Shown here: positions 1,452-30,936 of the stretch, piece after piece | Position numbering within the stretch: position 1 is the first letter of the stretch | How the letters are laid out: each line of letters starts with the position of its first letter | Notes under the pieces: generated by a model | Databases searched by the model: none | What the model was told of the DNA's origin: nothing | Seen by the model: only the letters and a program-made list of their open reading frames with translations | Translations under genes and position numbers: made by a program | DNA from: Sulfuritalea sp. | GTDB taxonomy: Bacteria > Pseudomonadota > Gammaproteobacteria > Burkholderiales > Rhodocyclaceae | DNA length: 64,000 bases | Direction: 5' to 3' | Assembly: GCA_023700805.1 (NCBI GenBank) | Contig: JAMPYF010000011.1 | Span: forward strand, 1-64,000

Positions 1452-2459
1452 CTAGTCCTCCTCTAGCAGATCCAGCCGGTCTCTAGTCCTCGCTATGATT
1501 TCAGAGCGGTTGTGGATTGCTAACGGCTTTAGCCAGCGCCGCTTGCTCCTGATCTTCTCGGCCAAACAGACATCTATGTCAACCGTATGACTCGAAGTCA
1601 ATGCGTATCCAAGCAATTCCATTTCGCGTGTGTCTTTGTCATCAACCACTTCAATTTCGCCCAGTTGTAGGTGTGACAAACGAATCCACTCCGGGTCCTG
1701 GGAGTTGCCTTCCAAGATGTAGCCTCCATTTCGTCCGCCTTGAATGAGATGGCAACCGGCAAGCGAGTACGTATCGGTCGACAGAGCGTCCGCTGCAACA
1801 ATATGATTCCCCCCGAGCGTCCTTTCCCCCAAGGCCGAATACCGAATGGTTTGCGCCTGACCGCCGGAACGCCCGTAGCTATTTCGCGAGACCTTCTCAT
1901 CTGGACTCTCTGCGAGCTTTGCAACAGCGTCTTCCAGCGTGAGACTGCTCGCTTCCGCCTGATCAACGAGCTGATTACCGACATCCACCGCTGCCATGGA
2001 TATCTTTGACGCACATTCAGCAATTTTTTGGGCTTCAGCAAGCGACGATTCTGCAATCGGCAGTGAAGGTTCCCGATGATTCGATAGCTCAACTTGATCA
2101 GAGTCCTTGGACGTCTGATCTTCATGGGTAACAGCATCAACTGGATGCTCGGGATTGCGCGCTACATCAAGCGAGCCTTGATCGGTTGCCGGGACAACGA
2201 GCTTCAGCTTACAGCGGGCAGGAAGTTCAATAATCACCTCGCCATATGCAGTTTGAGGGCACACCCGTTTGAGATCGGCACCTGCTTGGTTGAGCTGCTG
2301 AATTGCACTTGCAAGCGTTATCGCATGCCCGGGGAACGTCGCATCCGTCGAAGAAACGACACCGAAACGGTTGGTCTGTAGGCACTTGAGATCGAGCTTT
2401 CTCATCCTGCTATTCCTTAAATATTTTTTCCGGGGCTTACTTTCCGAATTTTTCTTCAT
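1452..2459 (-). CDS. Hypothetical protein, translationally coupled to the giant recombinase
   Basis: ORF restarts at MKKNSESKPRKKYLRN with ATGA overlap to the upstream 1620-aa ORF; no family recognised. Confidence 0.7.
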   Translation of the reverse strand: MKKNSESKPRKKYLRNSRMRKLDLKCLQTNRFGVVSSTDATFPGHAITLASAIQQLNQAGADLKRVCPQTAYGEVIIELPARCKLKLVVPATDQGSLDVARNPEHPVDAVTHEDQTSKDSDQVELSNHREPSLPIAESSLAEAQKIAECASKISMAAVDVGNQLVDQAEASSLTLEDAVAKLAESPDEKVSRNSYGRSGGQAQTIRYSALGERTLGGNHIVAADALSTDTYSLAGCHLIQGGRNGGYILEGNSQDPEWIRLSHLQLGEIEVVDDKDTREMELLGYALTSSHTVDIDVCLAEKIRSKRRWLKPLAIHNRSEIIARTRDRLDLLEED

Positions 2460-5400
2460 GGCGCGTCTCCTTGGGTCATCAACAAAATGGACAGAGCACA
2501 AACACTGACTAGAAATGAAAGTTGGGGTGATGCCCGCGACTTGCCGGGGGCTTTGGGTCCCTTTTCGGGCAGAAACTTGAGTGATGCTTGAATACCTCGC
2601 TTGAAATATCGAGATGGCAATCCTTTCGATCGCTTAATGCCAATGTCGTCCCAGCGATCCAGGATATAGTTGTCCATGGAGGAATTGCTGCCGGGATTGA
2701 GATCGGCTTCCAGCTCGATACCATTTGCCCGCCAGGCACCGACCCAGGGCCTCAATTCAAGAATGTCTTCAGGATTCGTGAAGCCCCACGGATCCCCGAT
2801 TTCGGACATGACGGTCACCAGGCGGTTGATGGCGGCGGGGTGCGGAGACACGGCTTTCATCGCGATGGCCAAACCACCCCCAAGCACCTCGTCAACAAAC
2901 ACATCCCGGTTGATATCTTCTCGGGCCTTAAGAAGTGAGACGCGGCGGCGATTCAGCGCAGTGATGCCTTTTTCTAACGTCCGGGCGGAATCCGATGTCA
3001 TTTTTGAGGCAAGCTGCGAGGCATTTTCCGATTCGCCGAGGAGCCTCAATCCGACATACAGCGCTGAGCCCGTTGAGACATCTTCACCGACGAAGTCAGG
3101 ATTCCACGGAAGCTGATCCTGGCCCTCCACGACTAAGCTTGAGAGTTGGATTAGCTTTACGCCAGTGTTGGGTACAGAGGCGGGATCGAAACCTTCAAAT
3201 ACGTCGAATTGTGAAGTACCAAGCCGAGAGATCCGCTTCCTGTACGTAGCCTCGGGAATCCCGGTTACCTTTGACAAAAACTTCGTGGAGGGTTTGCAGT
3301 TCAGATCGTCATTGATCTTGGTGACCCAGTTGCGGCGATGGACATCGAAGTTGTGGGCGTAGTTTTCCATTGGCACGTCAGGGGCGCTTTGTCCCGCCGC
3401 AACCGTGATGCGAAACATTCCCTGCCGAGCATCAAGTGTCCGTTGGGGGCGCATCGCTTTGTGTGGGTTCAAGAGGGAATCAATCCGCTGTGAGATGACG
3501 CAGCCTCTGGTGTCGTGCGGCCGGATCACGGCGGAGCCGGTTGCGCGGGTCAGCGCTTCGCAGATCAAGATATGAATTCGCCGCGCTGTCCGCGTCGTTC
3601 TCGGATCATCGTTATCCCCGAAGATCCGGACGAGGCGATCATTCGGAAATCGTGCTTCACGTTGCTCACAGATCTCCTCGAGACTGGCAACAAGTTCCTC
3701 CTCGAAGATCTCCAGTACGCGCGGCGCATTGCCGGTCTTCAGATCCGCCCCCGCCTCCCAGGTGATGACGAGATGAGGATGGTCAACCTCAAGCAACACA
3801 TCACACAACCGCAGATTTGCTATCCCATCCCACCGATGCGGCTGCTGAAGCAGCAATTGCAAGGCGACGGCAGCCAGATGCCAATCGTCACCAACACTGA
3901 TCTGCAGATCACTGAGCAAACGGACGGCGATTTCTCCCTCACTGAGGGATGGCATCTCAGCGTACGTAAGTGAAGCGGGGGGTGGCCCCGAGCGCCGAAA
4001 CGCTCGCAAATCGATTCCCATCCACTCCAGTGCGTGGTTGATGGCAGTACGATCAGGGCTTTCATTGGCGGATCCGTCTTCGTTTTCCAGGCAGGAAATG
4101 ACCAGAGATTTCCAATCAACCTGGGACGATCCGAACTCTGCCAAAGCAACGGCAGCCATTTCGAGGAACCGCCTCGCCCCGGTCTCATAGCGGATGATAG
4201 TAAAGATGTTCTTCTGGCTCTGGCACAGATAAAGCAGATAACTCGTCGTGATGTATTCCTGACTGGATGTCTCAAAATCCGGGAGAATGGCCTCCAGATA
4301 ACTAGATAGCCATTCAATCTGGCTTTTGTGAGATTTGTGTCCCTTAGCATTTCGCGCCGCCTTCTTCAGGGCTTGAAGGATTTTTTCCGGGCTGCGCGGC
4401 TGACGGCGATGCTGCCCCCGGCGGGTATCAAACCTCGGATGTTCGATCAATCCAAGCTTATGACGTGCGACAGTTTCCGGACGCGAAGTACGTGTGAATC
4501 GAAAACCCCGCACCCATCCATACAAAACACCGGGCATTCGTATCGCGTAACAAGCGGACGCACACGTCATCACAAACTCGAAACCTCGACCAGCGGCTTC
4601 AGGAAGTCCCCGATTCAGGAATTCATCGAGCGTCTTGTCGAGGTCGGCAAAGGTGACGGGAGCCTGGCTTGGCTCGAGGATGTTCTGGACGAGTCGTACC
4701 GTGGTCTCGGATAACCAGGTTCTCCGGATCCCAAGGCGCGTCGGCACGCAATCGATAAAGTTTTCCCGCTCATGCCGATAGAGTGTCCCTGTTTGCAATT
4801 CGTGTAACAGCCCATCAAGCTCGTCCCGGTGGATGACACCATCCTCAATGACCAGGCTCAGTGCTACCCCGAGCCATCCACTGGGCGGGGCATGCCGGCG
4901 CCAGGAACGGAACAATTTCTCATAGCTGCTCGCGAGGACGACGGTCCCGTCCTCAAAGGGACATGGCTCCGCTCGCCGAGAAGGATGATCCTCAGGCCAG
5001 TCAGGGGAGGACTGAAGTAGACTGGGGATGTATTGAGACAGCTTGGTCCTGGTCGCCACAAAAGGGAGCGGGCGTGGCGAAAGATCCGGTGCGGTAGGCA
5101 AGGAAAGGGTGCTGAGCCAATTCTCAATGACATCAGCGCATGCCTGCTGCGATTCTTGGGGAACGGCCGCGCTCCAACTAGAAAAGGCTTCTTGACCAGG
5201 ATAGCCCCGCCCCATCCAACCCATGATGGCGGCACTATCCAATTCGGCTTCCCGGAAAAGCCAATCGAGGAGATGCCGACCCCCATTGTTTTTGATGTCG
5301 TACTCACTATAGAGCGTGGCCAAATCGCCAGCGCCCAGCGGAATCACTTCACCTTTTTCCCCGAACAGGAAGAACAACGGGTGAACATCGCCGTCGAGGC

Positions 5401-7318
5401 TGATGTCGATGGCGGATGCGATTTTGTTGGCGAGCGCGCGGTCCTCCGAATACAGACGGTAGGCAAGGAGCTGAAGCCACGAGAGGTAGGTGTTGAGCCA
5501 ATTGCGCAGGGTCGGACACAAGAAGGCCAGTCTGCGCTCGTGATAAGGCGCGGTGCGCTTGTCCGTGCTTACCGCCACACCACTGGCCGGATCAATCCTG
5601 GAACGAGTAATGGTCTCTTCGGTTAATTCCCTTCCGGCCAGCAGCAATTTCAGGACGGCATAGATTCTGGTGGCTACCTTGTTGTGCGCAGCGAACAGCT
5701 TTTTCTTCGTCGCCCGCTTGGGTAATAGTTTGATTTGCCTACTCGTTTCCGCGAAGGCCGAGGTCAGAAATGCACCGACGTTCTGAATATCGGGGAGCCA
5801 AATTGAGCCAGTGTCTTCAGGGATTTCTACGGACAACTTTCCGGAAAATCCGATGCTCCGGTAGGCCTTACCGAGAATTTCAGCGAGCCGGGTCCCGCGC
5901 ATCGTGAAGTAATTAAAATTCGCACTCGTGCCCACGGTGAAGTCGAGTCCGATTCCTGACGCATACGCTTCGTCGTGGCAAAGGGACAAAATGTGGCGCG
6001 CCCATGTTTTGGAGAGACGAGTCAGGGTTGGCCGGTGAGACGTCAGAGAGAGGCTCCGGAGCATGGACTTAGTCGTTTTGGCAAGATCTGCCATGTCCGC
6101 TTGAAACAACTGATCAACGCTTGGCGGATTGCCCATCTTGCTTGCACGCCGTCGCAGGTCTTTGGCAACTTCCAGCGGCAGTGGAATTCTCATGATGCGG
6201 TCATTGGGGGAGCGCTGAAAGGGCTTTCCCTGGGGATGACTTGAAATTATCTCGTCCAAGTTCACACAGATGCAGCCTGCCTCCACATCGACCCATATGC
6301 CGGCACCTTTGGCAGGAGAGGTTGGAATTTTGGAGAACCGGGTTGGAAGCACGCGGGTGAAGAGGGTCAGAAGTGCGGCTAGACCTTCCTCAACGCAAAT
6401 GTTCTCCCACTGGCCGATGACCAGCGGAATGGTGAGTTCAAGTTCATAGGGCTGCATCCCGTGATAGGTGGGAATTCCAGAAAACACCCTGACGCCGGCC
6501 TTCCCAGGTTCGGCGAGAAAGTCACGGAGGGGATCGGAAGGAGTCCTTTCCTCGGACGAAGCAGGCTCGCCGTCATCATCTTCGTCGTCCTCGACCTCTT
6601 CGACCTTTTTTGTCGGTGCCACAAAAGTTGCAGCTGGTCCCTGGTCCTCAAACGGATTGTTCAGGTTGGCTTCGAGTGCCTGGATCAGATGCACAATCAG
6701 TCGGGCAGTCTGGGAGTCAATTTCATAGCACTGCCGAAGTTCTCTCAGTTGGTGGGCCTGAATGCCTTCCGGCACCAGGGACTCGGGACCATCACCGCCG
6801 AGCCAGCGATTGAGCTCCCCGGTCAGGTCCGCAGAAATCTGATCTCTACCCGCAAGCAACTTGAGGGCAAGAAGCCCGCGTACCGCCCGAACAGCGCGGT
6901 GACGCTTGGCTGTCAGGCTTTTACCGAGGGGTGACAAAAAATCGCGGAGCGGACTTTTCCGTTGGCTGCGGAGGGATCCCATGTCACGTACGTGATCATC
7001 CCTCCACCCAGCGATCAGTTTGGTCCGAAGATCTTCCAGGGAATTCGCCCAAGGCGGGACATCAATAATATTGCGCAACTCGGCCAGATCGGCTCTGAGT
7101 TCGCCAAGCAGACCCTGCAGCCCGACCCCGGATTCAGGAAGCAAGAATGTTTTTACTAGCTGGTCAAGAACAATGACACCCGAGCTGTCGAGGCAATGCC
7201 GTACAGCGTCTAGCGAGAATTTCGTCGGGGTTTTGGCTATGTCTGGGCGAGTCCAAGCCTCGCCGGTGGGCGATTCGATAGGGGCACCACAAGTTACGGT
7301 ATCCATAACAAGCTCCAA
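2456..7318 (-). CDS. Giant protein with C-terminal tyrosine recombinase/integrase catalytic motifs (1620 aa)
   Basis: HRWDGIANLRLCDV (Arg I), DLKTGNAPRVLEI (Lys), RPHDTRGCVIS (HxxR), GQSAPDVPMENYAHNFD (Tyr). Confidence 0.75.
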   Translation of the reverse strand: MELVMDTVTCGAPIESPTGEAWTRPDIAKTPTKFSLDAVRHCLDSSGVIVLDQLVKTFLLPESGVGLQGLLGELRADLAELRNIIDVPPWANSLEDLRTKLIAGWRDDHVRDMGSLRSQRKSPLRDFLSPLGKSLTAKRHRAVRAVRGLLALKLLAGRDQISADLTGELNRWLGGDGPESLVPEGIQAHQLRELRQCYEIDSQTARLIVHLIQALEANLNNPFEDQGPAATFVAPTKKVEEVEDDEDDDGEPASSEERTPSDPLRDFLAEPGKAGVRVFSGIPTYHGMQPYELELTIPLVIGQWENICVEEGLAALLTLFTRVLPTRFSKIPTSPAKGAGIWVDVEAGCICVNLDEIISSHPQGKPFQRSPNDRIMRIPLPLEVAKDLRRRASKMGNPPSVDQLFQADMADLAKTTKSMLRSLSLTSHRPTLTRLSKTWARHILSLCHDEAYASGIGLDFTVGTSANFNYFTMRGTRLAEILGKAYRSIGFSGKLSVEIPEDTGSIWLPDIQNVGAFLTSAFAETSRQIKLLPKRATKKKLFAAHNKVATRIYAVLKLLLAGRELTEETITRSRIDPASGVAVSTDKRTAPYHERRLAFLCPTLRNWLNTYLSWLQLLAYRLYSEDRALANKIASAIDISLDGDVHPLFFLFGEKGEVIPLGAGDLATLYSEYDIKNNGGRHLLDWLFREAELDSAAIMGWMGRGYPGQEAFSSWSAAVPQESQQACADVIENWLSTLSLPTAPDLSPRPLPFVATRTKLSQYIPSLLQSSPDWPEDHPSRRAEPCPFEDGTVVLASSYEKLFRSWRRHAPPSGWLGVALSLVIEDGVIHRDELDGLLHELQTGTLYRHERENFIDCVPTRLGIRRTWLSETTVRLVQNILEPSQAPVTFADLDKTLDEFLNRGLPEAAGRGFEFVMTCASACYAIRMPGVLYGWVRGFRFTRTSRPETVARHKLGLIEHPRFDTRRGQHRRQPRSPEKILQALKKAARNAKGHKSHKSQIEWLSSYLEAILPDFETSSQEYITTSYLLYLCQSQKNIFTIIRYETGARRFLEMAAVALAEFGSSQVDWKSLVISCLENEDGSANESPDRTAINHALEWMGIDLRAFRRSGPPPASLTYAEMPSLSEGEIAVRLLSDLQISVGDDWHLAAVALQLLLQQPHRWDGIANLRLCDVLLEVDHPHLVITWEAGADLKTGNAPRVLEIFEEELVASLEEICEQREARFPNDRLVRIFGDNDDPRTTRTARRIHILICEALTRATGSAVIRPHDTRGCVISQRIDSLLNPHKAMRPQRTLDARQGMFRITVAAGQSAPDVPMENYAHNFDVHRRNWVTKINDDLNCKPSTKFLSKVTGIPEATYRKRISRLGTSQFDVFEGFDPASVPNTGVKLIQLSSLVVEGQDQLPWNPDFVGEDVSTGSALYVGLRLLGESENASQLASKMTSDSARTLEKGITALNRRRVSLLKAREDINRDVFVDEVLGGGLAIAMKAVSPHPAAINRLVTVMSEIGDPWGFTNPEDILELRPWVGAWRANGIELEADLNPGSNSSMDNYILDRWDDIGIKRSKGLPSRYFKRGIQASLKFLPEKGPKAPGKSRASPQLSFLVSVCALSILLMTQGDAP

Positions 7319-7751
7319 AACGAAGACGACAAAAAGCCGGTGACGTCAAAGTGACGTACGAGCGGAAGAAACTGCTTGCGTGGGAAAGCCTTGTCGCTAC
7401 GGGAAGAAGCGAGTGGCGAGTGGCCTAAACAGACGGGGCCAACCGAGGCAAAGCCAAGGTGACTAATCCTTTAGAACTCAATTTGAGTGGGAAATTTTGG
7501 GCGCACTACGCCTGTCCGTGCGGGAACTAGGCGCCCACAAGCCAGAACAGACGCTTTTCACGGCGCTGTGAACGCCAAAACCGGCGTTCGTTTTACTTGC
7601 AGCTCAGTGCTGCCTCGCGGTGGAACTTTGATCCGCGAATTTAGCGGGTCGTAACGGAGACCCGTGACCGGTCGGCTACTGGTGCCAACGCCCGCATCAT
7701 AATTCAACTCTTGAAAAGTATGCAATACTTATAGCAGAGCAGTAGTCATTT

Positions 7752-7848
7752 CTCGGGTTCTCAGAACCCGAGTTGGATAGTGGATTTGTTAGATCGTTTG
7801 TGACATGTCTGCCCGAAATCGTGATTCGGCGTTGTTGAATGTCACAAA
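7752..7848. repeat. Inverted repeats next to putative att site
   Basis: CTCGGGTTCT-C-AGAACCCGAG (7752-7772); TTTGTGACAT (7797-7806) / ATGTCACAAA (7839-7848). Confidence 0.65.
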
Positions 7849-7955
7849 GTGGGTGACGGATTTTTTCAGTGCATTCAGTCAGATCAAGCATAGGGTTTGT
7901 ATTCGGATCTCTGGCGCCCTCTTAATAACTGTCAAAAACTACTATCTGCTTTTCC

Positions 7956-8001
7956 CTCCGAAGCCAGGGGGTTGTGGGTTCGATCCCCGCCGAGCGCGCC
8001 A
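7956..8001 (+). other. 3' fragment of tRNA-Arg (probably CCG anticodon): candidate att site
   Basis: CTCCGAA loop, 3' anticodon half, T arm GTGGGTTCGATCCCCGC and acceptor CGAGCGC-G-CCA present; the 5' half is absent. Confidence 0.75.
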
Positions 8002-8318
8002 ATCCTTGTGTCGCAAGGACATTCAGCGATTCGCTGATTCAAGGCAGTGAATAAATTCTTATTTGGCATTTTCGGCCAGGATTCAACTCGTCGTCATAGA
8101 GCATTCGACGCAGGCACGAAGAGCAAAGGTCAGCGATTTTGACCAAGTTAGTCCCGTGACCAAGCGGATTCGGCTCGGGAGTTACCGTGGGGATTTTTGA
8201 CTACTGCCGTCCGTGACTGATTCCTCAGGAACGTATTCGGCCAGATCTCCTGGCGCGCAGTTGAAGTAGCGACATGCCCGTGCGTCGAACAGTTGGCGCT
8301 GGCGCCACGGCGTGCGGT

Positions 8319-9590
8319 TTAGCGGCAGGCCTCGATTTCGGCCAGCATCCGCAATGCCAGTTCCTTGCGATCGTAACGACAGGCTGCGGCAAGTCCGTTC
8401 TGGCGATAGCGCTGGCGCAGGGTGTCGTCCGCCTTGAGCGCCAGCAGTCCGGCGCACAATGCGTCAACGTCTTCCGGCACGAACACCTGGCCGCAGCCTT
8501 CCTGCTCGACTATTTCCGCCGATTCGCCGGCCACCCCGTGCAGCACCGGAATGCCCATGCCCATGCACTCGAACAGCTTCGACGGGATCACGGTGGTGAA
8601 CAGTTCGGTCTTCTTCAAATGGATGATCGACACATCCAGCAGCGACCAGTAGCGCACCACCTGCTCCTTCGGCACCGAATCGACGAATATCACATTGCTC
8701 AATCCCATGGCCTTGGCCTGCGCCACCAGCTTTTGCTTGTTGGCGCCATCGCCGAGAAACAGCAGGCGGATATCGCGCCCGACCGGATCGTCCTGCAGCC
8801 GCCGCGCCGCCTCCAGAAGCGTTTCAAGGGCATGCGCCATGCCGTGGGTGCCGATGTAGCCGGCAACGAATTTGCCCGGCAAACCCAGCTCGAATTCAAG
8901 CGCCATGTCACGCGCCTGAGGCCTGAAGCGGCCGACATCCACGCCGTTGGTCACCACCGCAATCTTGTTCCCGTCGATGTCGCGACCGACCAGATTACGC
9001 TTGAAGGACTGCGTCACCGAAACAATGCGCGCGGCCTTGCGATAAAGAAACAGCTCAAGGCCTTCCAGCAGATCCAGTACGCGCGAATTGTCGATGGCGC
9101 CGACCGCGCGGATCGATTCCGGCCACAAATCGCGCAGTTCGAATACATACGGAACGCGCTTCAGGCGGCTCACCGCATACGCGGCGCAGGTCGTGAACAA
9201 CTGCGGCGACGTGCCCAGCACCACATCCACGCCGCGGATGAACGGCGAAGCAAGGATCGCCGCCGCCATGAAACTCTGGTAATCGAGGATGCGCTTGATG
9301 AAGCCCTCGTTGGCCGTGATGTAGCTCCACACCCGGATCACGCGGATGCCGGCCATCTCTTCGGTCTGCCAAAGCGCATTGCGATAGCCGTCGAACACCC
9401 TGCCCTTGGGAAAATTCGGCGCACAGGTCACCACAGTAACGCGATGCCCGGCCTGGACCCATTCCCGGCAATGTTCGAAAGTGCGCGAAGCGGGCGCGTT
9501 GACCTCAGGCGGGAAATTGTCGGTCAGAAACAGAATGTGCATATCAAGCCCAGGAAAATTCCATCGCCGCCTGCGGCCCTTTGAACACAA
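8319..9590 (-). CDS. Glycosyltransferase family 4 (WbuB-like)
   Basis: MHILFLTDNFPPEVNAPASRTFEHCREWVQAGHRVTVVTCAPNFPKG...; true start probably the internal MHILFL. Confidence 0.85.
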   Translation of the reverse strand: MCSKGRRRRWNFPGLDMHILFLTDNFPPEVNAPASRTFEHCREWVQAGHRVTVVTCAPNFPKGRVFDGYRNALWQTEEMAGIRVIRVWSYITANEGFIKRILDYQSFMAAAILASPFIRGVDVVLGTSPQLFTTCAAYAVSRLKRVPYVFELRDLWPESIRAVGAIDNSRVLDLLEGLELFLYRKAARIVSVTQSFKRNLVGRDIDGNKIAVVTNGVDVGRFRPQARDMALEFELGLPGKFVAGYIGTHGMAHALETLLEAARRLQDDPVGRDIRLLFLGDGANKQKLVAQAKAMGLSNVIFVDSVPKEQVVRYWSLLDVSIIHLKKTELFTTVIPSKLFECMGMGIPVLHGVAGESAEIVEQEGCGQVFVPEDVDALCAGLLALKADDTLRQRYRQNGLAAACRYDRKELALRMLAEIEACR

Positions 9591-11199
9591 GCTCGATACA
9601 CATACTGGCTATCGACTGGCCGAACTCCGGATGCCAGGTGGCGACTATGACACGAGCGGCACCACCGGTCGCGCACCAGCGGATTATATGTCCATCGGGT
9701 AGAGTCAGCAGCCCGCCGTCGCCTGCGCTGGAAGCCGTGACGGCCGGATGCAGGTAGAAGCGCGCCACCGCTTCGCCAAAACCGCCTTCGACCGTATCGG
9801 TAACGCGCAAACCCTGCTCCGTCATGCGCCAGTTGCGGCGGTGCAGGGGCCGCCCCGGCAGACGACAATAGCCATCATGCGCACAAGTCAGCTCCACGGC
9901 ATCGGCGTCCTCGCTCGCGGCGAAGCCCACGGGCCGCGCCCGGCGCGCCACGCGAAAGCCGCTCCAGACCTCGCTCGAATCGGCGCCATCGATCTGCACC
10001 GTACTGTGCGCTGCGGTGCCGCGCTGGCGCAGACGCTCGGCACCGAGCCCGTACTCCGACGTCCCCGAATTCACTACTACCCGCTGCCCGAAAACAGACA
10101 GCTCGAAGGACAGCGTATCGGCATGGGCGTGGCCGGGCAGATAGTCGGGACCGATTTCGCCGACATCCGCTATCAGGACGGCATCATTTCTCCGCACCCG
10201 TACGTAGCCACTCTGCAGGGCCGACTTCAGTCCGCCAGCAACCATCCCCAACTCATCAGCGTAAGCGCCCAGGTCCGCCAGCTTCGGCGCAATCCCAAAC
10301 GCTGCATCGTTGAAAAATGCAATCCCGCCGTCCGGATGGGTCATCGCCGCCAGCCAGTCCAGCATGCGCAGCGCGAGCCGGCGCCAGTCGGTCACCGCTG
10401 CGGGGTCCATCGTGCCCGGCCAGCGCCGTGCAAGCTGGATCAAGTCCAGCAGATCCTCAAGAATGATCGCGTGATACATCGGGCTGCGCTCGAAATGCCC
10501 GCCGTCCTCCAGTATCTGTTCGGCATGCTCGCGGCGCAGAATGGCGAGCCCCTTCTCCCGCCAGACATCAGCCTCCGGCCCGGAAAAGAACGTCCCGGCA
10601 AAGACCAGCGCCTTGGCGTTCGCCAGCAAATGGTTTCCCAGCAGATGCCACTCCAGCCGTCCCATCAGCCAGCGCGCCTGCACCGCCAGACTTTGGACCA
10701 CACCCGCCTCTGGCGCATTGCCCGCGGCAAGCCACTTGATCCAGTTCACCAGCCGCAGCGACAGCGGATAAGGCTCCCAGCCGTTGCCGACCGCAGGTGG
10801 GTTCTCGGCGATCCAGCGTGCCATCAGGGCGCGGTGCCACTCCAGCCGTGCCGCCGCATCGTCGGCGTTCAGGTCATCGAAATAATGCAGGTTGTAGAGC
10901 CAGAGCTTGGGCCAATCCGACCGATTCCAGTCGGCAGCCGAAGTCAATGTCCGCGTCACCGACAAAAAGTGAAAGCGCGCCGGCCCGGTCATCGATACCA
11001 CCCGACCGCAACGTGCCCACTGTCCGGTCGCTGGCCGCACTTCCGGCGGCGGCCGCAGATCTGGCGCCGGGCGACGCAGGCGAAACCACAGCCGACCGTA
11101 AATCTGGACTGGCCGCAGATAGCGGATAGTGTGCCAGTAGCGGAAGACCGTTCCGAGAAAATTGCGACCCGCAGGAAATGGCCGGCAAGTCATGGCCAA
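9544..11199 (-). CDS. Heparinase II/III-family protein
   Basis: WLYNLHYFDDLNA..., NDAAFGIAP, YLPGHAHADTLSFELSVFGQRVVVNSGTSEYG typical of EPS-locus heparinase-like proteins. Confidence 0.85.
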   Translation of the reverse strand: MAMTCRPFPAGRNFLGTVFRYWHTIRYLRPVQIYGRLWFRLRRPAPDLRPPPEVRPATGQWARCGRVVSMTGPARFHFLSVTRTLTSAADWNRSDWPKLWLYNLHYFDDLNADDAAARLEWHRALMARWIAENPPAVGNGWEPYPLSLRLVNWIKWLAAGNAPEAGVVQSLAVQARWLMGRLEWHLLGNHLLANAKALVFAGTFFSGPEADVWREKGLAILRREHAEQILEDGGHFERSPMYHAIILEDLLDLIQLARRWPGTMDPAAVTDWRRLALRMLDWLAAMTHPDGGIAFFNDAAFGIAPKLADLGAYADELGMVAGGLKSALQSGYVRVRRNDAVLIADVGEIGPDYLPGHAHADTLSFELSVFGQRVVVNSGTSEYGLGAERLRQRGTAAHSTVQIDGADSSEVWSGFRVARRARPVGFAASEDADAVELTCAHDGYCRLPGRPLHRRNWRMTEQGLRVTDTVEGGFGEAVARFYLHPAVTASSAGDGGLLTLPDGHIIRWCATGGAARVIVATWHPEFGQSIASMCIELVFKGPQAAMEFSWA

Positions 11200-11242
11200 A
11201 GCGCGATCGGCGACATCGCGTTCGCGGAAGCGGCATTACCAA

Positions 11243-11581
11243 TCAAGCGATTTTTGCCGTGGAACGTCGCTGGCCTGGATCATCCTCAAAAGCTATTTTC
11301 AAGCGCTTCCCGATTGCGGCGGCCGCCTTCGTAAGCGTCACCAGCGTAACGGAAGCGTTGTCGGGATCAAGCAGGCGATCCAGTTGCGAGCGGCTGGTGC
11401 CAATGCGCTTCACCATCGCAACTTTCGATATTTTTTGAGATTTCATCGCCTCCGCCAGCATTACAGCGATCACTTTCTTTATGGCAGTTGCTTCGACATC
11501 CTCATAGATACCTTCGTCCTTGAGAAAGTCATCGAAGCTCGATCCCTCATGCTTGTTGCGTTTCACTTTGCGTCCTTCCAT
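11243..11581 (-). CDS. HigA-like / XRE antitoxin-type protein (alternative GTG start at 11563)
   Basis: MLAEAMKSQKISKVAMVKRIGTSRSQLDRLLDPDNASVTLVTLTKAAAAIGKRLKI. Confidence 0.8.
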   Translation of the reverse strand: MEGRKVKRNKHEGSSFDDFLKDEGIYEDVEATAIKKVIAVMLAEAMKSQKISKVAMVKRIGTSRSQLDRLLDPDNASVTLVTLTKAAAAIGKRLKIAFEDDPGQRRSTAKIA

Positions 11582-11664
11582 TTCTTCCAGCGTTTTCCGG
11601 CAAGGTCGATATCGTCGCGATCGGCGTTTTCCTGCTTCTTGACGATGCCTTGCAACAAAACTAT
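11564..11664 (-). pseudogene. C-terminal remnant of a gp49/HigB-like toxin
   Basis: Reading frame ...IVLLQGIVKKQENADRDDIDLAGKRWKKWKDAK* directly upstream of and overlapping the antitoxin; no 5' portion. Confidence 0.6.
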
Positions 11665-11668
11665 ACCC

Positions 11669-13810
11669 TCACCCACCCGCCGCCTCGATCGTCACCCGCG
11701 CCACTTCGATCAATTCCTCCAGCGGAATCGGCGCCGGGCCGCCCGCCTCGACTGCGCGGACAAAGGCGGCGGCACAGGCTTTCTGGCCCTTGTCCTGGCG
11801 CCACAGGTTCATCTTGGCGAAACCCGGCCAGCCGAAACCGGCAAGCCTGCGGAAGTTGTCGAGTTGCAGCGCCCGACCGCTGGCAAACACCTCCAGCCGT
11901 TCCTTGGGAAAGCTCTTCGGGCCGTTGGCGAAGTAATGCACGGTGCCGATCGAGCCGTCTGCGAACGAAAGCTGCAGGCTCACCGTATCCTGGGTTGCCG
12001 ATGCCATGTCCGTCCGCCGCCACTCGACGATAGGCGCGCCGGCCAGAAAGCGCAGCAGATCGATGAAATGGCAGGCCTCGCCGACGATGCGGCCGCCGCC
12101 GACCTCGCTGTCCTGCGTCCAGTGCTCGGCCGGAATCGCGCCGGCATTCACCGTCATGACAAACGCCTTGGGGCCGCCGACACCCGCGAGCAAGGCCTTG
12201 ACGCGCTGCACCTGCGGCGCAAAGCGGCGGTTGAAGCCGACCATCACGCGCCCGGCCGATGAGGCCGCCGCGGCTTCGATCGCGGCCAGTTCGTCCAGCG
12301 TCAGGCAGAGTGGCTTTTCGACGAACACATGCTTGTCGGCCTTGAGGGCCTCGATCACCAGACCGGCATGGCTGTCGTGCCGCGTGGTGATCACCACCGC
12401 ATTCACCGCCGGATCGCTCAGCACGCCCGCGGTATCGGTGGTGGTCTGCTCGAAGCCGAACTTGCGCCCCGCATGCAGCCCGCTCACGCCGGCGCTCGAT
12501 GCCACCACCTTCAAGCGCGCCCCGGCCAGCTTGAAGGCCGGGATCAGCACCGCGGTCGCGTAATTGCCCGAGCCGATAAAACCGCAACTGCACGCGGCAG
12601 CCGGCGCCGCAGCCGCATGCGTAAATTCAACAGTCTGCCGCCGTACCGGACTCTGTCTGCCGGGGACTCCGCTTCGCGGGCCGGCAAGCGCCAACTCTTC
12701 ATCCTGCGGATATTCCAGCAGTATCCCCAGCGAAGGCCCGGCCCCGCCCACCAGGGCATAAGCCTGCTCGGCGTCGTCGATCGCGAAGCGGTGCGAAATC
12801 AGCGGCTTCACGTCCAGCCGGCCGTCGGCCATCATGTCCAGCACGGCCTCGAAGTTGCGCTGCTCGGTCCAGCGCACGAAGCCCACCGGGTAGTCGTTCC
12901 CCTTGTCCTCGTAGCTGGGGTCATAGCGCCCCGGCCCGTAGGAGCACGACACCTGGAAAGTCAGCTCCTTCTCGAAGAAGTCGGCGCGCGAAAGCTCCAG
13001 GCCCGTCACGCCGACCAGCACGATGCGGCCGCGTTTGCGGCACATCTGCGCGGCCTGGTGCACCGGCTCGTTGCTCTTGGTCGAAGCCGTGATCAGCACC
13101 GCATCGACGCCGCGCCCGCGCGAAAAACGCTGCGCCGTCGCCACCGGATCCTCGCCGGCCGCCAGATCCACCACCTCGGCGCCCATGGCCCGCGCCAGGG
13201 CGAGCTTGTCCGCGTCAAAATCCAGCCCCAGCACGCGGCAGCCCTGCGCGCGCAGCAACTGCACCGTCACCAGCCCGATCAGGCCGAGCCCGGTCACCAC
13301 CACCGCCTCGCCCAGCGTCGGCTGCACCAGGCGGATGCCCTGCAACGCGATGGCGCACACCACGGTGAACGCCGCCTCCTCGTCGGACACGGAATCCGGC
13401 ACCCTTGCGCACAGATTCACCGGCACGCTCACCGCCTCGGCGTGCTTGCCGTTCGAGATCACGCGATCGCCAACGGCAAACGCCGTCACGCCAGCGCCAA
13501 CTTCCAGCACCCGCCCCGCATTGCAGTAGCCCAGCGGCAGCGGCTGGTCGAGCTTGTTGAACACCGCGTCAACCGTCGGCAGGAGGCCGTCGGTCCTGAT
13601 CTTGTCGAGCACCATGCGCACCTTGTCCGGCTGCTGGCGCGCCTTGTCGATCCAGCCGGCCTTGCCGAACTCGATCATCATGCGCTCGGTACCCGCCGAC
13701 ACCAGCGTGCGCGTGGTGCCGATCAGCAACTTGCCGCGGCCGACCGCCGGGCAGGGAACGTCGGCAACTTCAGTCGCGCCTGTTTTGAGGCTTTGAAGTA
13801 TTTGTTTCAT
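11669..13810 (-). CDS. Bi-domain oxidoreductase (Zn-dehydrogenase-like plus Gfo/Idh/MocA domain)
   Basis: Zn-dehydrogenase half (GYCNAGRVLEVGAGVTAFAVGDRV) fused to Gfo/Idh/MocA half (VEKPLCLTLDELAAIEAA). Confidence 0.88.
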   Translation of the reverse strand: MKQILQSLKTGATEVADVPCPAVGRGKLLIGTTRTLVSAGTERMMIEFGKAGWIDKARQQPDKVRMVLDKIRTDGLLPTVDAVFNKLDQPLPLGYCNAGRVLEVGAGVTAFAVGDRVISNGKHAEAVSVPVNLCARVPDSVSDEEAAFTVVCAIALQGIRLVQPTLGEAVVVTGLGLIGLVTVQLLRAQGCRVLGLDFDADKLALARAMGAEVVDLAAGEDPVATAQRFSRGRGVDAVLITASTKSNEPVHQAAQMCRKRGRIVLVGVTGLELSRADFFEKELTFQVSCSYGPGRYDPSYEDKGNDYPVGFVRWTEQRNFEAVLDMMADGRLDVKPLISHRFAIDDAEQAYALVGGAGPSLGILLEYPQDEELALAGPRSGVPGRQSPVRRQTVEFTHAAAAPAAACSCGFIGSGNYATAVLIPAFKLAGARLKVVASSAGVSGLHAGRKFGFEQTTTDTAGVLSDPAVNAVVITTRHDSHAGLVIEALKADKHVFVEKPLCLTLDELAAIEAAAASSAGRVMVGFNRRFAPQVQRVKALLAGVGGPKAFVMTVNAGAIPAEHWTQDSEVGGGRIVGEACHFIDLLRFLAGAPIVEWRRTDMASATQDTVSLQLSFADGSIGTVHYFANGPKSFPKERLEVFASGRALQLDNFRRLAGFGWPGFAKMNLWRQDKGQKACAAAFVRAVEAGGPAPIPLEELIEVARVTIEAAGG

Positions 13811-13871
13811 TGACTTTCAACATTCACAGCGAGCTTCGAACAGCGATGACAGTCCGCCATCTACCCCCTTT

Positions 13872-13937
13872 GGCCGACTGAAGTCGGCCCTACAACGGCA
13901 CCCTGTCCCCGACCTGCAAGGCGGACCTGAGTCCGCC
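13872..13937. repeat. REP-like hairpin pair
   Basis: GGCCGACTGAAGTCGGCC (13872-13889) and GGCGGACCTGAGTCCGCC (13920-13937). Confidence 0.6.
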
Positions 13938-14064
13938 ACCCCTTCCACAATTTCTATCGATAAGCCTCGCGCCGATCACCTACGCGGAGGGGCGACCGAT
14001 AACACAACGATCCTGAATATCGCAAATGATGCGCCAATAATCTTGCGCCTTGCGCCCCCTCACT

Positions 14065-15294
14065 TCACCGCAAACTCCTCCCGCTTTCGCCCGGACCCCT
14101 CCAACGCAACCAGCCACTTCGGGACCCGGCCGCGGCCCGACCAGGAATCGCCATTGGCGGGATTGCGATACTTCGCCGCGACGGCCTTGCGGGTTTTGGC
14201 GGCCTTGACACCGCCGCCCAAGTCGGCCAGCGTGATGCCGTATTCCGCCAGCCTTCCTTGAAGGTCAGGCCGAGGATGAGGATTCTTGAGTCCACAACTT
14301 GCATCTTGCGCCGCGTCATGAGCTTGACGACTTCGTCGGCCACATAGCCGGCCATGCTGTCGTTGATTCGGCGGCCGGCGAGGATGACTTCGGGGTGGTA
14401 GCCGATCTCCTGCGCCTTGTGGGTCAGGTAGTAGGGATCGACGCCGATGCAGTGGCCGCCGACGAGGCCCGGTCGGAAGGGCAGGAAGTTCCATTTGCTG
14501 CCGGCGGCTTCAAGCACTTCGAGGGTGTCGATGCCGAGGCGGTGGAAGATCAATGAGAGTTCGTTCATCAGGGCGATGTTGAGATCGCGCTGGGTGTTTT
14601 CGATGACCTTGGCGGCTTCGGCGACCCTGATGGAGCTGGCCTTGTGGGTGCCGGCGGTGATGATGCTGCGATAGAGGGTATCGACGAAATCGGCGATTTC
14701 CGGGGTGGAGCCGGAGGTGACCTTCTTGATGGTGGGCAGGCGGTGTTGTTTGTCGCCGGGGTTGATGCGTTCGGGGCTGTAGCCGCAGTGGAAGATATTT
14801 TGTTCCGTCTCCTGCCCCTGCCCCATCCCCTCCCCGGCCCTCCCCTTGAAGGGGAGGGAGGTGGAGTAGCTTAGGCCGGAGTGTTTTTCGAGGATGGGGA
14901 CGCAGACTTCTTCGGTGGCGCCGGGGTAGACGGTGGATTCGTAGATGACGATGGCGCCTTTGGGCATGACCTTGCCGACGGTTTCGGAGGCCTTGATCAG
15001 CGGGGTGAGGTCGGGGCGCTGGGCGTTGTCGACGGGGGTGGGTACGGTGACGATGAAGACATTGCAGCTGCGCAGTTGTTCCGGGTCGGCGGTGAAGCTG
15101 AGCTGGCTGGCTGCGGCGAGTTCGGCGGGTTCGACTTCACGGGTGCTGTCGCGGCCGGCCTTGAGTTCGTCGATGCGGCCTTGCTTGATGTCGAAGCCGG
15201 TGACCGGGTATTTCTTGCCGAATTCAACGGCCAGCGGCAGGCCGACGTAGCCCAGGCCGACGATGGCGATACGGGTGTCTGTTGAAATGTTCAT
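14065..15294 (-). pseudogene. UDP-sugar dehydrogenase (TviB/WbpO-like), C-terminal domain lost, fused out of frame to an H-NS gene tail
   Basis: Good homology pattern to [10 protein letters not shown], then the DNA encodes, in another frame (14060-14494), [13 protein letters not shown]...[21 protein letters not shown], an H-NS C-terminal domain. Confidence 0.7.
14838..14858. repeat. Palindromic dispersed-type repeat inside coding sequence
   Basis: CCCTCCCCTTGAAGGGGAGGG; encodes in-frame insert [14 protein letters not shown]. Confidence 0.65.
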
Positions 15295-15358
15295 GCAGGA
15301 TCAGGGCTTTCTCGACGACAGAAGGTGGGCGACGGAACGGAGATCGAGGACAAGGTAC

Positions 15359-15772
15359 TCATGCATTCTGCTTCGTGGGCAGCGCGGCACTGCCCGGCAT
15401 TTCCGCTTGCGCTTGCCGCAGCGCCGATATTTCGGCCTTCAGGGCTTCGTACTCGGCTTCTTTCCGGGCCAGGTAATCGCGGGTCAGCAGGGCACGGTTC
15501 CTGACGCCCTCGGGCGTCAGGAGGTACGCGACCTTGGAAAGCTTGCCGCCGCTGCGGCCGAAGTGCGCCATTTTGAGCAGGCCTTTTTCGACCAGGGCGG
15601 CGATCAGATAGTGAACCTTCCCATTGCTTATCCCCAGCTGATGGGCAAGGTCCCGCTGCGAGATTTCCGGGTTCTGTTCGATTGCGCGAAGAATCTGAAA
15701 ATGGACTTGATCTTTGGGGGTCATCGGGGTTGATTGGATAGCCGCTGGCGCGTGCTCAATTTTGAGCGCCAA
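15359..15772 (-). CDS. MarR-family EPS-associated transcriptional regulator
   Basis: ILRAIEQNPEISQRDLAHQLGISNGKVHYLIAALVEKGLLK... and C-terminal coiled segment. Confidence 0.85.
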   Translation of the reverse strand: MALKIEHAPAAIQSTPMTPKDQVHFQILRAIEQNPEISQRDLAHQLGISNGKVHYLIAALVEKGLLKMAHFGRSGGKLSKVAYLLTPEGVRNRALLTRDYLARKEAEYEALKAEISALRQAQAEMPGSAALPTKQNA

Positions 15773-15812
15773 TCACTATAACGGCGGTGGGGGAATATGG
15801 CAATCGATTTTT

Positions 15813-15838
15813 AAAGAGTTGGCGCTGGCGGCACGGCG
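15813..15838 (+). repeat. Representative copy of dispersed ~24-bp repeat
   Basis: AAAGAGTTGGCGCTGGCGGCACGGCG; matched at 8291, 12682(rc), 13485(rc), 17019, 27636(rc), 30693, 45160, 51811(rc), 55352(rc), 62645(rc). Confidence 0.85.
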
Positions 15839-16034
15839 ACGGGTTCTTGGGACCGGAACGGCAGGCTGGGATGGCCTCTGTGCAGCCGGCTTGCGGGCTA
15901 GCCGCAATAAGTACGATCGAAGCGGATCGGCGCTTCAGGCGCTGCGCTGTCGCCAACTCCCGTGCAGCTTGCTGCCCCTCCCATGATGTGTCCGCATGCC
16001 GCCGTTCATCCGCGAACTGCCGGCTCGGAGTGAG

Positions 16035-16982
16035 TCAATGATGATTTTCGAGCAGCCGCACCAGGGCGTGCAGGACGCGATTGACCGGCGTCGCGATGCC
16101 CAGCGCCTCGCCGCGGCGCAGCACGTAGCCGTTGAGGTGGTCGATCTCGCTGCGCTTGCCGCGCGCCAGGTCCTGGGCGGTCGAAGACAGCTGGCCGGGC
16201 ATGGTCCGCACGATGTCGGCCACGGCCTGGTGGATGTCGCCGGGCAGGGTCACGCCTTCGGCCTGCGCCACGGCCAGGCATTCGGCGACGATGTCGCGCA
16301 TCACCTGATCCACGCCGGCGCCCTCAACAATGCGGCCGTAGGGCAGTTGCGTGATGGCCGAAAGCGCGTTGTAGGCGCAATTGATGATCAGCTTGGCCCA
16401 CAGCGCGCCGGCGACGTTGTCGGAGACCTGCACCGGCACGCCGGCGGCGGCGAACATCCGCGCCAGTTCGGCGCCCTGGGGCGATGGCCCTATCACCAGC
16501 TCGCCGCGCCCGCGGTGCCGCACATGCCCGGGCCCGGCCATTTCGGCCGCGACATAGACCACGGCCGGCAGCACCTCGCGCCCGAGCAGCGCCTGCAGGC
16601 GGTCGGCGTTATCGACGCCGTTCTGCAGGCTCAGGATGATTGCATTGGCGGCCAGGTGCGGCGCCATCGCCGCGGCGGCCGCGGCGGTATCGGTCGACTT
16701 GACGCAGCACAGCACCAGTTGCGCCCCGGCCACGCCGCCGGCATCGGTGCCGGCCTCCAGCGCGACGTGCTCGCGGAAGGTCTGAGTATCCAGCAGCAGG
16801 CCGTCGCGCTCGATCGCCGCGACATGCTGCGGCCGTCCGACCAGGACCACCGCATGGCCGGCGCGGGCCAGCATTCCGCCGTAATAGCAACCCACCGCAC
16901 CGGCGCCCATCACCGCAATTCTCATTTCACCCTCCTGTTCGTCATGCACATCGGCCGCCGGCCAGCTTGCCGGGGAGACCAT
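16035..16982 (-). CDS. panE: 2-dehydropantoate 2-reductase
   Basis: MRIAVMGAGAVGCYYGGMLARAGHAVVLVGRP; likely start is the internal MRIAVMG. Confidence 0.88.
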   Translation of the reverse strand: MVSPASWPAADVHDEQEGEMRIAVMGAGAVGCYYGGMLARAGHAVVLVGRPQHVAAIERDGLLLDTQTFREHVALEAGTDAGGVAGAQLVLCCVKSTDTAAAAAAMAPHLAANAIILSLQNGVDNADRLQALLGREVLPAVVYVAAEMAGPGHVRHRGRGELVIGPSPQGAELARMFAAAGVPVQVSDNVAGALWAKLIINCAYNALSAITQLPYGRIVEGAGVDQVMRDIVAECLAVAQAEGVTLPGDIHQAVADIVRTMPGQLSSTAQDLARGKRSEIDHLNGYVLRRGEALGIATPVNRVLHALVRLLENHH

Positions 16983-17057
16983 GAGGCCGAGATTAGCAGC
17001 CCGCGGGCGCGGCCGCAGAAAGTTGCCGCTGGCGCCACGGCGCCGGTACGCGCCCGA

Positions 17058-18479
17058 TCAGCCGCCGCCCGCCTTGAAGCGCCGCAGCGTGCGCAGCCGC
17101 GCCTGCGCGTGGTCGACCACCGGCGCCGGGTAGTCGCGACCGATGACGACAGCGCAGGCGGCCTGCTGATCCGCGCTCATTTTCCACGGCGCGTGGATGA
17201 ACTTCTGCGGCACGCGCGCCAGTTCCGGCACCTGGCTGCGGATGAAGCGGCCCTCGGCGTCGAATTTTTCCGACTGCGTGACGGGATTGAAAATGCGGAA
17301 CCAGGGTTGCGCATCGCAGCCGGTCGAAGCGGCCCACTGCCAGCCGCCGTTGTTGGCGGCAAGGTCGAAATCGAGCAGCTTTTCGGCGAACCAGGCCTCG
17401 CCCTGGCGCCAGTCGAGGCCCAGGTCCTTGCACAGGAAGGATGCGGCGACCATGCGCAGGCGGTTGTGCATCCAGCCGCAGGACGACAGCTGGCGCATCG
17501 CGGCATCGACCAGCGGATAACCGGTGCGGCCCGCGCACCAGGCGGCGAACAGTTCCGGCGCGACATCCCAGCGCAGGGCGTCGCAGGCCGGCTTGAAGCA
17601 TTGGGTGGCGACGCGCGGATGGTGCCAGAGGATGGCGTGGTAGAAGTCGCGCCAGATCAGTTCCGCAAGCCAGGTTTCCGCGCCGCGGCCGCCGTGCGCA
17701 TGGGCGTAGGCGGCAAGCTGGCGGATCGAGAGGGTGCCGAAGCGCAGATGCGCCGACAGGAAGGAAGTGCCCCTGACGGCAGGGAAATCCCGCGTGGCGG
17801 CATAGTCGTCGATGCGGCCGATGAAGTCGCGGAACAAGGCTTGCGCGCCTCCCATGCCGGTGGGCACACGCAGTGCGCCCAGATCGGTATCTTCGAAGCC
17901 CAGGTCCTGCAGCGTCGGCAGCGGAGCGTCGGCCACCGGCGGCGCGAGATGCGCGGCGTATTCCGCGACGGGCCAGGCGCGCAGGTCGGCCGCCGCCAGC
18001 CTCTTGAGCCAGGCATTCTTGTAGGGCGTAAACACCGAAAAGGCCTTGCCGCCCTGGGTCATCAGCTCGTCGCGCTCGAAGATCACCTGGTCCTTGAAAT
18101 CGAGATAGTCGGCGTCGGGTTTGCCCGCATGGAGACGGCGCCTGACTTCCGCATCGCGGGCGATCGCCGCCGGCTCGTAGTCGCGGTTGGCGAATACCGC
18201 GGCGACGCCGAGCTGTGCGGCGAGATGCGGAATTTCGATCCGCGGATCGCCATGGCGCACGATCAGCGCGCCGCCCATCGCGCGCAGCGCGGCGGCGACA
18301 TCCTCCACCGCGCGCAGGATGAACTCGACGCGCCGGTCGCGACGCGGCAGGCGATCGAGCAGCGTCGTGTCGAAGACGAAGGCGCAATGCACCCGCGTGT
18401 GCATGCGCAGCGCGTGATGCAGGGCGGCGTGGTCGTGCAAGCGCAGATCGCGACGGAACCAGACGAGGGCGGCGGACAT
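17058..18479 (-). CDS. phrB: Deoxyribodipyrimidine photolyase
   Basis: [16 protein letters not shown]..., [55 protein letters not shown]. Confidence 0.93.
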
Positions 18480-28549: not shown

Positions 28550-29469
28550 ACGCTCCGCTGACCGCAAGCACCGCTCCGACCGCCCGCCAGGCGCAGAAAT
28601 CAGCCTTCGAGGCGAACAAGCTGGCCAAGCGCCTGCGCCGCGAGGTGGGCCAGGCGATCGCCGACTTCAACATGATCGAGGCCGGCGACAAGGTCATGGT
28701 CTGCCTCTCCGGCGGCAAGGATTCCTTCGCCCTGCTCGACGTGCTGCTGTTCCTGCGCGAGCACGCGCCGATCGCCTTCGACATCGTCGCCGTCAATCTC
28801 GACCAGAAGCAGCCCGGCTTCCCCGCCGAGGTGCTGCTCGACTACCTGCGCAGCATCGACGTGCCCTTCCACATCGAGAACGAGGACACTTATTCCATTG
28901 TCAAGCGTGTGATCCCGGAAGGCAAGACCACCTGCTCGCTGTGTTCGCGCCTGCGCCGCGGCGTGCTGTACCGCGTCGCCGGCGAACTGGGGGCGACCAA
29001 GATCGCGCTCGGCCATCATCGCGACGACATCCTGCAGACCCTGCTGCTCAACATGTTCTTCGCCGGCAAGCTGAAATCCATGCCGCCCAAGCTGGTATCC
29101 GACGACGGCCGCAACATCGTGATCCGGCCGCTGGCGTATTGCCGCGAGAGCGACCTGGCAGCCTGGGCCGCGGTGCGCGACTTCCCGATCATTCCCTGCA
29201 ACCTCTGCGGCTCGCAGCCCAACCTGCAGCGCCAGCAGGTCAAGCAGATGCTGAACGACTGGGACAAGCGCTTTCCGGGGCGCATCGAGACCATGTTCCG
29301 CAGCCTCTCCAATGTCGTGCCCTCGCATCTGCTCGACGCCCGCCTGTTCGATTTTGCCGGCCTCGCGGCGACCGGCACGCCCGATCCGGAAGGCGACATC
29401 GCCTTCGATCCGCCGGCCATGCCGCCTGAATCGGCGCAACCCGTCGGCTTTGCGGCAAAGGACGACTGA
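28546..29469 (+). CDS. ttcA: tRNA 2-thiocytidine(32) synthetase
   Basis: [18 protein letters not shown]...[10 protein letters not shown]...[12 protein letters not shown]. Confidence 0.95.
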
Positions 29470-30251
29470 TGGACGCGCGCCGCCTCCCCGCGCGCCACGG
29501 CATACTCTGGCTGCTGGCCGGCTTCGCCCTGTTTCGCCGCCATCCGCCGCTGATGACGGCGCTGACCTTCGCCTACCTGCTGACCGTGATCGTGGTCAAC
29601 CTGATTCCGAAAATCGGCCCCTTCCTGTTGCCGCTGCTGCTGCCGACCCTGACCGTCCTGCTGGCCAACGGCAGCCGCGCCATCGAACGCGGCCAGCCCT
29701 TCGACGCCAACACCCTGGGCTTCGGCATCGGCGCCCAGCGCACCGGCCTGCTGCGCCTGGGCGGCCTGCACCTGGTGGGCTCCAGCCTGCTGGTGCTGGG
29801 CGGCGCGGCGCTGGGCGAACCGATCAACATCAGCGACGGCATGGACCAGGAAGAAACCCTGGCGCTCGCCACCGATCTCGGCATCCTGCTGGTGCTGGCC
29901 TCGCCGCTGCTGATGGCCTTCTGGTTCGCGCCCTTGCTGACCGCCTGGAACGGCGTCGGCGCGGGCAAATCGCTGTTCTTCAGCTTCGTCGCCAGCTGGC
30001 GCAACTGGCGCGCCTTCGCCATGTACGGACTGGCGCTGGCCTTGGTCGGCGCCCTGGTGCCGGGCCTGATCCTGATCGTCGCCGGCCTGCTGTCGCAGAC
30101 CCTGCTCGACATCCTCTCGGTGGCGCTGCGCATGCTGCTGATTTTCGTGCTGGCGCCGACCATGGTGGCCAGCGTGTATCTGTCCTATCGCGACGTGTTC
30201 GCGGCACCCGTGACCGTGCCTGGCTCAGTGCCGGCCCAGGCCGATGAGTGA
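29469..30251 (+). CDS. BPSS1780-type membrane protein
   Basis: Multiple TM segments; LLMAFWFAPLLTAWNGVGAGKSLFFSFVASWRNWRAF. Confidence 0.75.
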   Translation: MDARRLPARHGILWLLAGFALFRRHPPLMTALTFAYLLTVIVVNLIPKIGPFLLPLLLPTLTVLLANGSRAIERGQPFDANTLGFGIGAQRTGLLRLGGLHLVGSSLLVLGGAALGEPINISDGMDQEETLALATDLGILLVLASPLLMAFWFAPLLTAWNGVGAGKSLFFSFVASWRNWRAFAMYGLALALVGALVPGLILIVAGLLSQTLLDILSVALRMLLIFVLAPTMVASVYLSYRDVFAAPVTVPGSVPAQADE

Positions 30252-30936
30252 ACCCGGCGCGGGAGTGCTCGGCCTGTTCGGCGGCACCTTCGATCCGCTG
30301 CACGTTGCGCACCTGCGCCTGGCCCTGGAAGCGCGCGAGGCCCTGGGCCTGGCCGAGGTCTGCCTGATTCCGGCCGGCAGGCCGGCCTTGCGCGAGGCGC
30401 CGCTTTGCGCGGCCGCCGACCGCCTGGCGATGGTGGAGCGGGCGCTGGCCGAGCTGCCGGGATTCAGCGTCGACGCGGCCGAAGTGCTGCAGGCAAGCGG
30501 CGCGGCAGCCAGCGCGGCGCCGAGCTACACGATCGACACCCTGGAACGCCAGCGCCGCCTGCATGGCGCGCAGCGGCCGCTGGTGCTGCTGCTCGGCGCC
30601 GATGCCTTCGCCCGGTTCGAAGCCTGGCACCGCTGGCGCGAGCTGTTCGGCCTGGCGCATGTCGCCGTGGCGACGCGACCGGGGCATGAATTGAAAGTTG
30701 GCGCTGGCGAGACGGCGCTGGATGCCGAATTTGCCGCGCGCCGGGGCGTCGCCGCCGACCTCGCCGGCGCCCCGGCGGGGCGCATCGTGCCCTTCGCCAT
30801 CACCGCGCTGGAGATTTCCGCCAGCGCCATCCGCCGACGGCTGGCCGCGGGCCTCAGCGTCCGCTATCTGGTTCCCGAGGCCGTTCTCGACTATATTGAT
30901 TGCCATCAGCTCTACCGGACTTCGCATGGACATTAG
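30244..30936 (+). CDS. nadD: Nicotinate-nucleotide adenylyltransferase
   Basis: LGLFGGTFDPLHVAHLRLALEA...EISASAIRRRLAAG. Confidence 0.94.
   Translation: MSEPGAGVLGLFGGTFDPLHVAHLRLALEAREALGLAEVCLIPAGRPALREAPLCAAADRLAMVERALAELPGFSVDAAEVLQASGAAASAAPSYTIDTLERQRRLHGAQRPLVLLLGADAFARFEAWHRWRELFGLAHVAVATRPGHELKVGAGETALDAEFAARRGVAADLAGAPAGRIVPFAITALEISASAIRRRLAAGLSVRYLVPEAVLDYIDCHQLYRTSHGH

Follow-up and report, generated by a model that had tools for sequence, protein, structure and literature searches.

A predicted fusion of an inactive and an apparently active tyrosine recombinase domain at the truncated-tRNA end of tRNA-Arg(CCG) islands

Introduction

The first 64,000 nucleotides of contig JAMPYF010000011.1 from a Sulfuritalea sp. 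assembly (GCA_023700805.1; hereafter the window) carry, close to a truncated tRNA gene, an open reading frame of 1620 codons with tyrosine recombinase motifs that overlaps a smaller gene. The questions raised by this locus are what kind of recombination machinery so large a protein represents and to what element it belongs. The first-pass annotation had proposed a single recombinase of 1620 residues, translationally coupled to a partner of 349 residues. The reading frame (7318–2456, minus strand) is indeed open, but its 1620 codons are counted from a TTG; the preferred start is the ATG at 7306, behind a GGAG ribosome site, which defines a gene at 2456–7306 (minus strand) and a protein of 1616 amino acids. 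The ATGA overlap with the partner gene (1452–2459, minus strand) likewise stands, whereas the length of 349 residues, again counted from an upstream TTG, does not: the ATG at 2459, located inside the overlap behind an AAGGAG ribosome site, gives 335 amino acids.

Results and Discussion

Two recombinase-like domains in one chain

Used as a single query, the whole 1616-residue protein retrieved nothing significant from Pfam, NCBIfam, PADLOC, PHROGs or PDB, and its individual domains, searched alone, remain below the Pfam cut-off. The first informative matches were weak and involved residues 459–757, with a 1798-residue protein in genome G040, and residues 529–738, with genes on Aeromonas and Vibrio plasmids. 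The Vibrio match is a 743-residue 'integrase' directly followed by a 995-residue PF00589 recombinase, a layout suggesting that two recombinases are fused in the window protein. Family profiles agree with this picture. The profile of the N-terminal domain (residues 420–745; 5072–6049, minus strand) matches the PDB entries of XerD (E=5e-7) and a XerC-like protein (6e-5), and that of the C-terminal domain (residues 1030–1335; 3302–4219, minus strand) matches XerA (E=1e-12) as well as XerC-like proteins, Int, XerH and Cre. PF00589 is matched by 21 of the 24 C-domain family members; the window's copy is not among these, and its assignment to the tyrosine recombinases is therefore based on the family profiles and the conserved residues. 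Direct alignment of the N-domain and C-domain profiles with hhalign was weak and inconsistent (E=7e-5 once, 0.09 again), so that the case for kinship between the halves is that each separately matches known recombinases.

Inspection of the catalytic positions (R-K-H-R-H/W-Y) reveals that the two domains differ. The C domain contains R1158, K1190, H1264-D-T-R1267 and Y1316, as had been noted before, and departs from the set at the fifth position, which is Q1306 and not His or Trp; 1157 residues precede the catalytic region and 300 follow it, in agreement with the earlier estimates of about 1,100 and 300. In the N domain R559, K583 and H678 are retained, but the second arginine and the tyrosine nucleophile of a catalytic tyrosine recombinase are absent, being replaced by D681 and W711 (with F708 nearby), and the His/Trp position is occupied by R700. 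By sequence, the 1616-residue protein is a head-to-tail fusion of two tyrosine recombinase domains, with a dead domain in front and an apparently live one behind it. The original description as one recombinase was correct in kind and incomplete in number, since the 1100 leading residues hold a second, degenerate recombinase domain. AlphaFold models, made for residues 420–1440 and for the partner, are of low confidence (pLDDT 38 and 43) and yielded no fold match; the one that bears on the catalytic fold was built from three sequences (pLDDT 37.7) and gave no usable fold match.

Split and fused forms of the family

Profile searches over about 1,200 genomes identified more than 50 loci, distributed across Pseudomonadota. 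In every locus holding both domains they are consecutive, N followed by C. In about two-thirds of the loci the domains are encoded by separate overlapping genes, and in the remainder they are fused. Homologues might have lacked the catalytic residues; in the C domain, counting only sequences in which the position is present, R1 and K are found in 51 of 51, and the second arginine and the tyrosine in 50 of 50. The fifth residue is Gln in the window and in genome G001, and His in 46 others. All N domains in which the position is present retain R1 and K, but the second arginine and the tyrosine vary with gene architecture: the second arginine occurs in 22/35 split versus 0/19 fused proteins (Fisher P=2e-6) and the tyrosine in 11/35 versus 0/19 (P=0.005), both values being uncorrected for, and inflated by, relatedness among the loci. 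The idea that all split N proteins are catalytically intact was ruled out by the same count, the tyrosine being present in only 11 of 35.

A quick tree of the C domain, which has long branches, involves seven changes among split, fused and mid-broken forms, and its starred branches alone require at least two changes for the fused label. The nearest non-fused relative, L053, is interrupted within the N domain and retains both the second arginine (ARHVLRQ, before the break) and a tyrosine behind it (FASYSAAS), which is probably the nucleophile. A gene boundary within the N domain is also found in L055, L121, L113 and L147, with a 4-bp overlap in L053 and L055, which could mean that a fused gene was secondarily split or is read by translational coupling or frameshifting.

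Split systems usually include a third small coupled gene upstream (about 160–226 residues, 22 loci), whose product is HTH-like in Vibrio (E=0.001); in place of it, the clade of the window has the 335-residue partner downstream. The latter belongs to a family of three, to which a weak homologue in L053 (E=8e-4) can be added. No similarity was found between the partner and the small upstream gene product, the SE protein Srap (see below) or recombinase domains. On the opposite strand, downstream of the pair, a small HTH_3 regulator is encoded at 896–1210, which could regulate the island. Phage records gave no match, and viral contigs did not contain the window pair; the latter yielded one distant C-domain relative (36%), in L151 (IMGVR_UViG_3300008221_001529), a contig filed as viral that may in fact represent an island.

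Islands inserted at tRNA-Arg(CCG)

The truncated att-like tRNA site that had been placed within 700 bp of the large gene proved to be the 3' end of tRNA-Arg(CCG), from the anticodon loop to CCA (7955–8001, plus strand), located 649 bp from the start codon; it represents the att copy at the recombinase end. The pair, its ATG overlap and the tRNA remnant recur in two other genomes, with identities of 52/46% and 50/42% for the large protein and the partner, respectively, so that the arrangement is not due to chance.

In G001, a Rhodocyclales MAG, the remnant sequence is found twice on one contig as perfect 48-bp repeats 54.0 kb apart. The left copy belongs to a complete tRNA-Arg gene, and 0.6 kb separates the right one from the recombinase. 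To the left of the tRNA, the flanking sequence is syntenic in 11 relatives with an empty site; on the right, synteny resumes beyond strain-specific DNA. G1151 displays the same arrangement, with 55.5 kb between perfect 47-bp repeats. Among 29 other genomes of the genus, the tRNA 3' sequence is present once in 27, twice in G017 (on separate contigs) and not at all in G009. Both G001 and G1151 thus combine an intact tRNA, a distant 3' repeat and empty sites in relatives, as expected of a tRNA-targeted genomic island, and the initial suggestion of a recombination module from an under-described integrative element is well supported. The G001 island also encodes, at L097–L099 (C5:43480–65914), PglW, PglX and PglZ of a BREX-like system, an Orf5/HEC-06-like protein and the Mokosh-like MkoA/MkoB.

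Of the island in the window only the remnant end is visible, since the contig begins within it, so that we infer its size and its far-end integrase. The intact tRNA and its left flank were sought in the same assembly and are absent, at a contig break. Compared with the intact tRNA, the remnant has an additional G, for which reason no copy of the site within three mismatches is found in this genome. The GC content is 0.555 on the island side and 0.667 in the rest of the window.

That the large gene is a decayed recombination gene persisting as island debris would be in line with this extra G and with the dead N domain. We consider it highly improbable, as more than 1600 codons have stayed open in orthologues that are only 50–52% identical, and the tyrosine, both arginines and the coupled partner are conserved.

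An all-against-all comparison of the G001 and G1151 islands reveals only three shared genes among otherwise unrelated cargo: a PF12167/PF00589 integrase (78% identical), the fused recombinase (52%) and the partner (48%). In both islands the fused recombinase and the partner lie at the truncated-tRNA end and the integrase lies near the intact tRNA. The three genes could in principle belong to two independent elements in tandem, an integrase island and a separate recombinase element sharing one target. In the window the tRNA remnant is separated from the flank that relatives share by a further strain-specific block (8002–17085), so that the tRNA-Arg locus seems to be a wider hotspot, which speaks for such a tandem arrangement. 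Nevertheless it appears improbable: a third att copy is missing from the 54-kb island, where the best internal match is 28/47, and two islands with unrelated cargo have these three genes in corresponding positions. The block at 8002–17085 encodes a glycosyltransferase, a heparinase-like protein and an oxidoreductase. Elsewhere in the window, ARAGORN reports two tRNA-SeC genes on the minus strand (37412–37499 and 50394–50489), which is unusual and may include a false call.

The PF12167 integrase and the fused protein

Beyond these two islands, PF12167 integrases were found within the fetched flanks, a few kilobases from the module, in about 17 loci; the density-based expectation for such neighbours ignores the clustering of mobility genes and does not provide an exact P. 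By genome, only 9 of the 114 genomes of the class encode a PF12167 integrase and six of these nine also hold the module (P=2.5e-6 for co-occurrence). The genome of the window has a single PF12167 integrase (L161; G000 C30, about 29022–30450), 0.8 kb downstream of tRNA-Met(CAT) and apparently in a different island.

Based on these observations, we propose, with a probability of roughly 0.55, that the fused protein and its partner, probably together with the PF12167-type integrase, constitute the mobility machinery of a large genomic island, with the 3' end of tRNA-Arg(CCG) as its insertion site. The sub-threshold Pfam scores, the poor AlphaFold models and the Gln at the fifth catalytic position in the window and in G001 speak against this proposal.

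The conventional integrase of the islands could suffice for catalysis. It is a complete canonical enzyme in the position usual for ordinary tRNA islands, and its conservation exceeds that of the fused protein (78% versus 52%), which has a Gln for His/Trp and a dead first domain. The fused protein and the partner might then be att-binding accessory factors, concerned with directionality, synapsis or immunity and taking no part in strand exchange. We regard such a division of labour as a serious though unlikely alternative: the nucleophile and both arginines of the C domain are invariant in about 50 very divergent homologues, which would be needless for a non-catalytic factor, and the fetched flanks of many modules contain no PF12167 integrase, although one may be located at a far end.

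The att-side region and a possible mechanism

Comparison with G001 delineates a conserved non-coding region on the att side (7482–7954). Including the tRNA remnant (7482–8002), DNA identity is about 79%, versus about 64% for the coding sequence. Two elements in this region are common to all three loci and are absent at the integrase side: the inverted repeat TTTGTGACA-N34-TGTCACAAA (7797–7848; spacer N34/35 among the loci) and the identical 12-mer GAGCAGTAGTCA (7737–7748). By sequence, TTTGTGACA/TGTCACAAA is a candidate binding site of the recombinase or the partner.

In the mechanism that we infer for the proposed mobility machinery, the fused protein would bind the conserved region of about 520 bp beside the core, at TTTGTGACA-N34-TGTCACAAA, and Y1316 of the C domain would exchange the strands at the tRNA core. 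Within the synapse, the place of the second recombinase would be taken by the dead N domain, a built-in partner that does not catalyse, and every polypeptide would thus contribute one active and one inactive subunit. Such a pairing could restrict exchange to one strand or make it depend on a second integrase, and the 335-residue partner, perhaps also the integrase, may assist the dead/live pair at the core.

A more far-reaching reading is that these islands form a distinct class in which the machinery is divided between the ends, the intact-tRNA end providing a conventional integrase and the opposite end a single chain of live and dead halves plus the coupled partner, and in which the built-in dead half would enforce a one-strand (strand-biased, copy-out-like) exchange. 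We regard it as doubtful.

Comparison with known systems

The joint action of two related recombinases at one site is an established principle, exemplified by XerC and XerD. These are two live enzymes of about 300 residues each, whereas here one member is dead and both are in one chain. With ordinary PF12167/PF00589 tRNA islands the present ones have in common the intact tRNA, the integrase just downstream and the truncated repeat at the far end; they differ by the second, large recombinase system conserved at the truncated end.

It is already established from SE and GInt elements that a dead recombinase-fold protein can belong to a recombination module (PMC10214605, PMC5385486). GInt are ginABCD islands of Gamma- and Betaproteobacteria, in which one recombinase, GinC, lacks catalytic residues; they resemble the present islands in having an operon with more than one tyrosine recombinase, including a catalytically incomplete one, in their site-specific insertion with direct imperfect repeats and in carrying variable cargo (PMC5385486). 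On the other hand, the target here is tRNA-Arg, and the GInt operon comprises four genes, for three integrases and a small HLH protein, in place of a fused double recombinase and a 335-residue partner with a conventional integrase at the opposite end. A four-gene operon of the ginABCD type was not found at one end, the operon here having two genes. Judged from the published description of the Gin proteins, the two systems are similar in logic, not in gene layout.

SE, the strand-biased circularizing integrative elements, contain a dead recombinase-fold protein, Tfp, adjoining the large live IntB, encoded by overlapping genes (PMC10214605, PMC9345347), and offer a model for the possible role of a dead partner. 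They have inverted termini of 13–19 bp and a 6-bp footprint or spacer, as opposed to the 47–48-bp direct tRNA repeats of the present islands. Membership was rejected, the profiles of the N, C and partner families having no match to Tfp, IntB or Srap of SE-6945 (HMM and hhalign searches; pSEA1); the sole similarity to SE-6945 is a generic one between the C domain and IntA (56%).

A link to the gamma-mobile-trio (GMT), hinted at in the first-pass annotation, was not borne out. As described in work citing Mahata et al. 2024, GMT is a multi-gene module that includes a recombinase and resides on defence-rich islands, and to that extent resembles the present one. Neither a scan of the whole of NCBIfam nor a search with NF040693 (recomb_GmtY) retrieved a match to GmtX, GmtY or GmtZ, and recomb_GmtY is a family of 441 positions, compared with 1616 residues for the window protein. 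Taken against the open papers, and with sequence comparisons that covered the SE and GMT proteins, we read the present islands as a new variant of multi-recombinase islands.

Significance

Dead recombinase-fold partners are already known from SE and GInt; in the present case dead partner and live enzyme form one chain, the loss of N-domain catalytic residues accompanies the fusion, and the fusion locks the dead and live halves at a fixed 1:1 ratio. What a dead partner is for thereby becomes a question that a single protein and a short att DNA can address. Moreover, a widespread family that is nameless in the standard domain libraries gains names and boundaries. It occurs on islands able to carry anti-phage systems, such as the BREX-like Pgl and Mokosh-like systems of G001, and the fused protein is a marker for one end of such large mobile islands.
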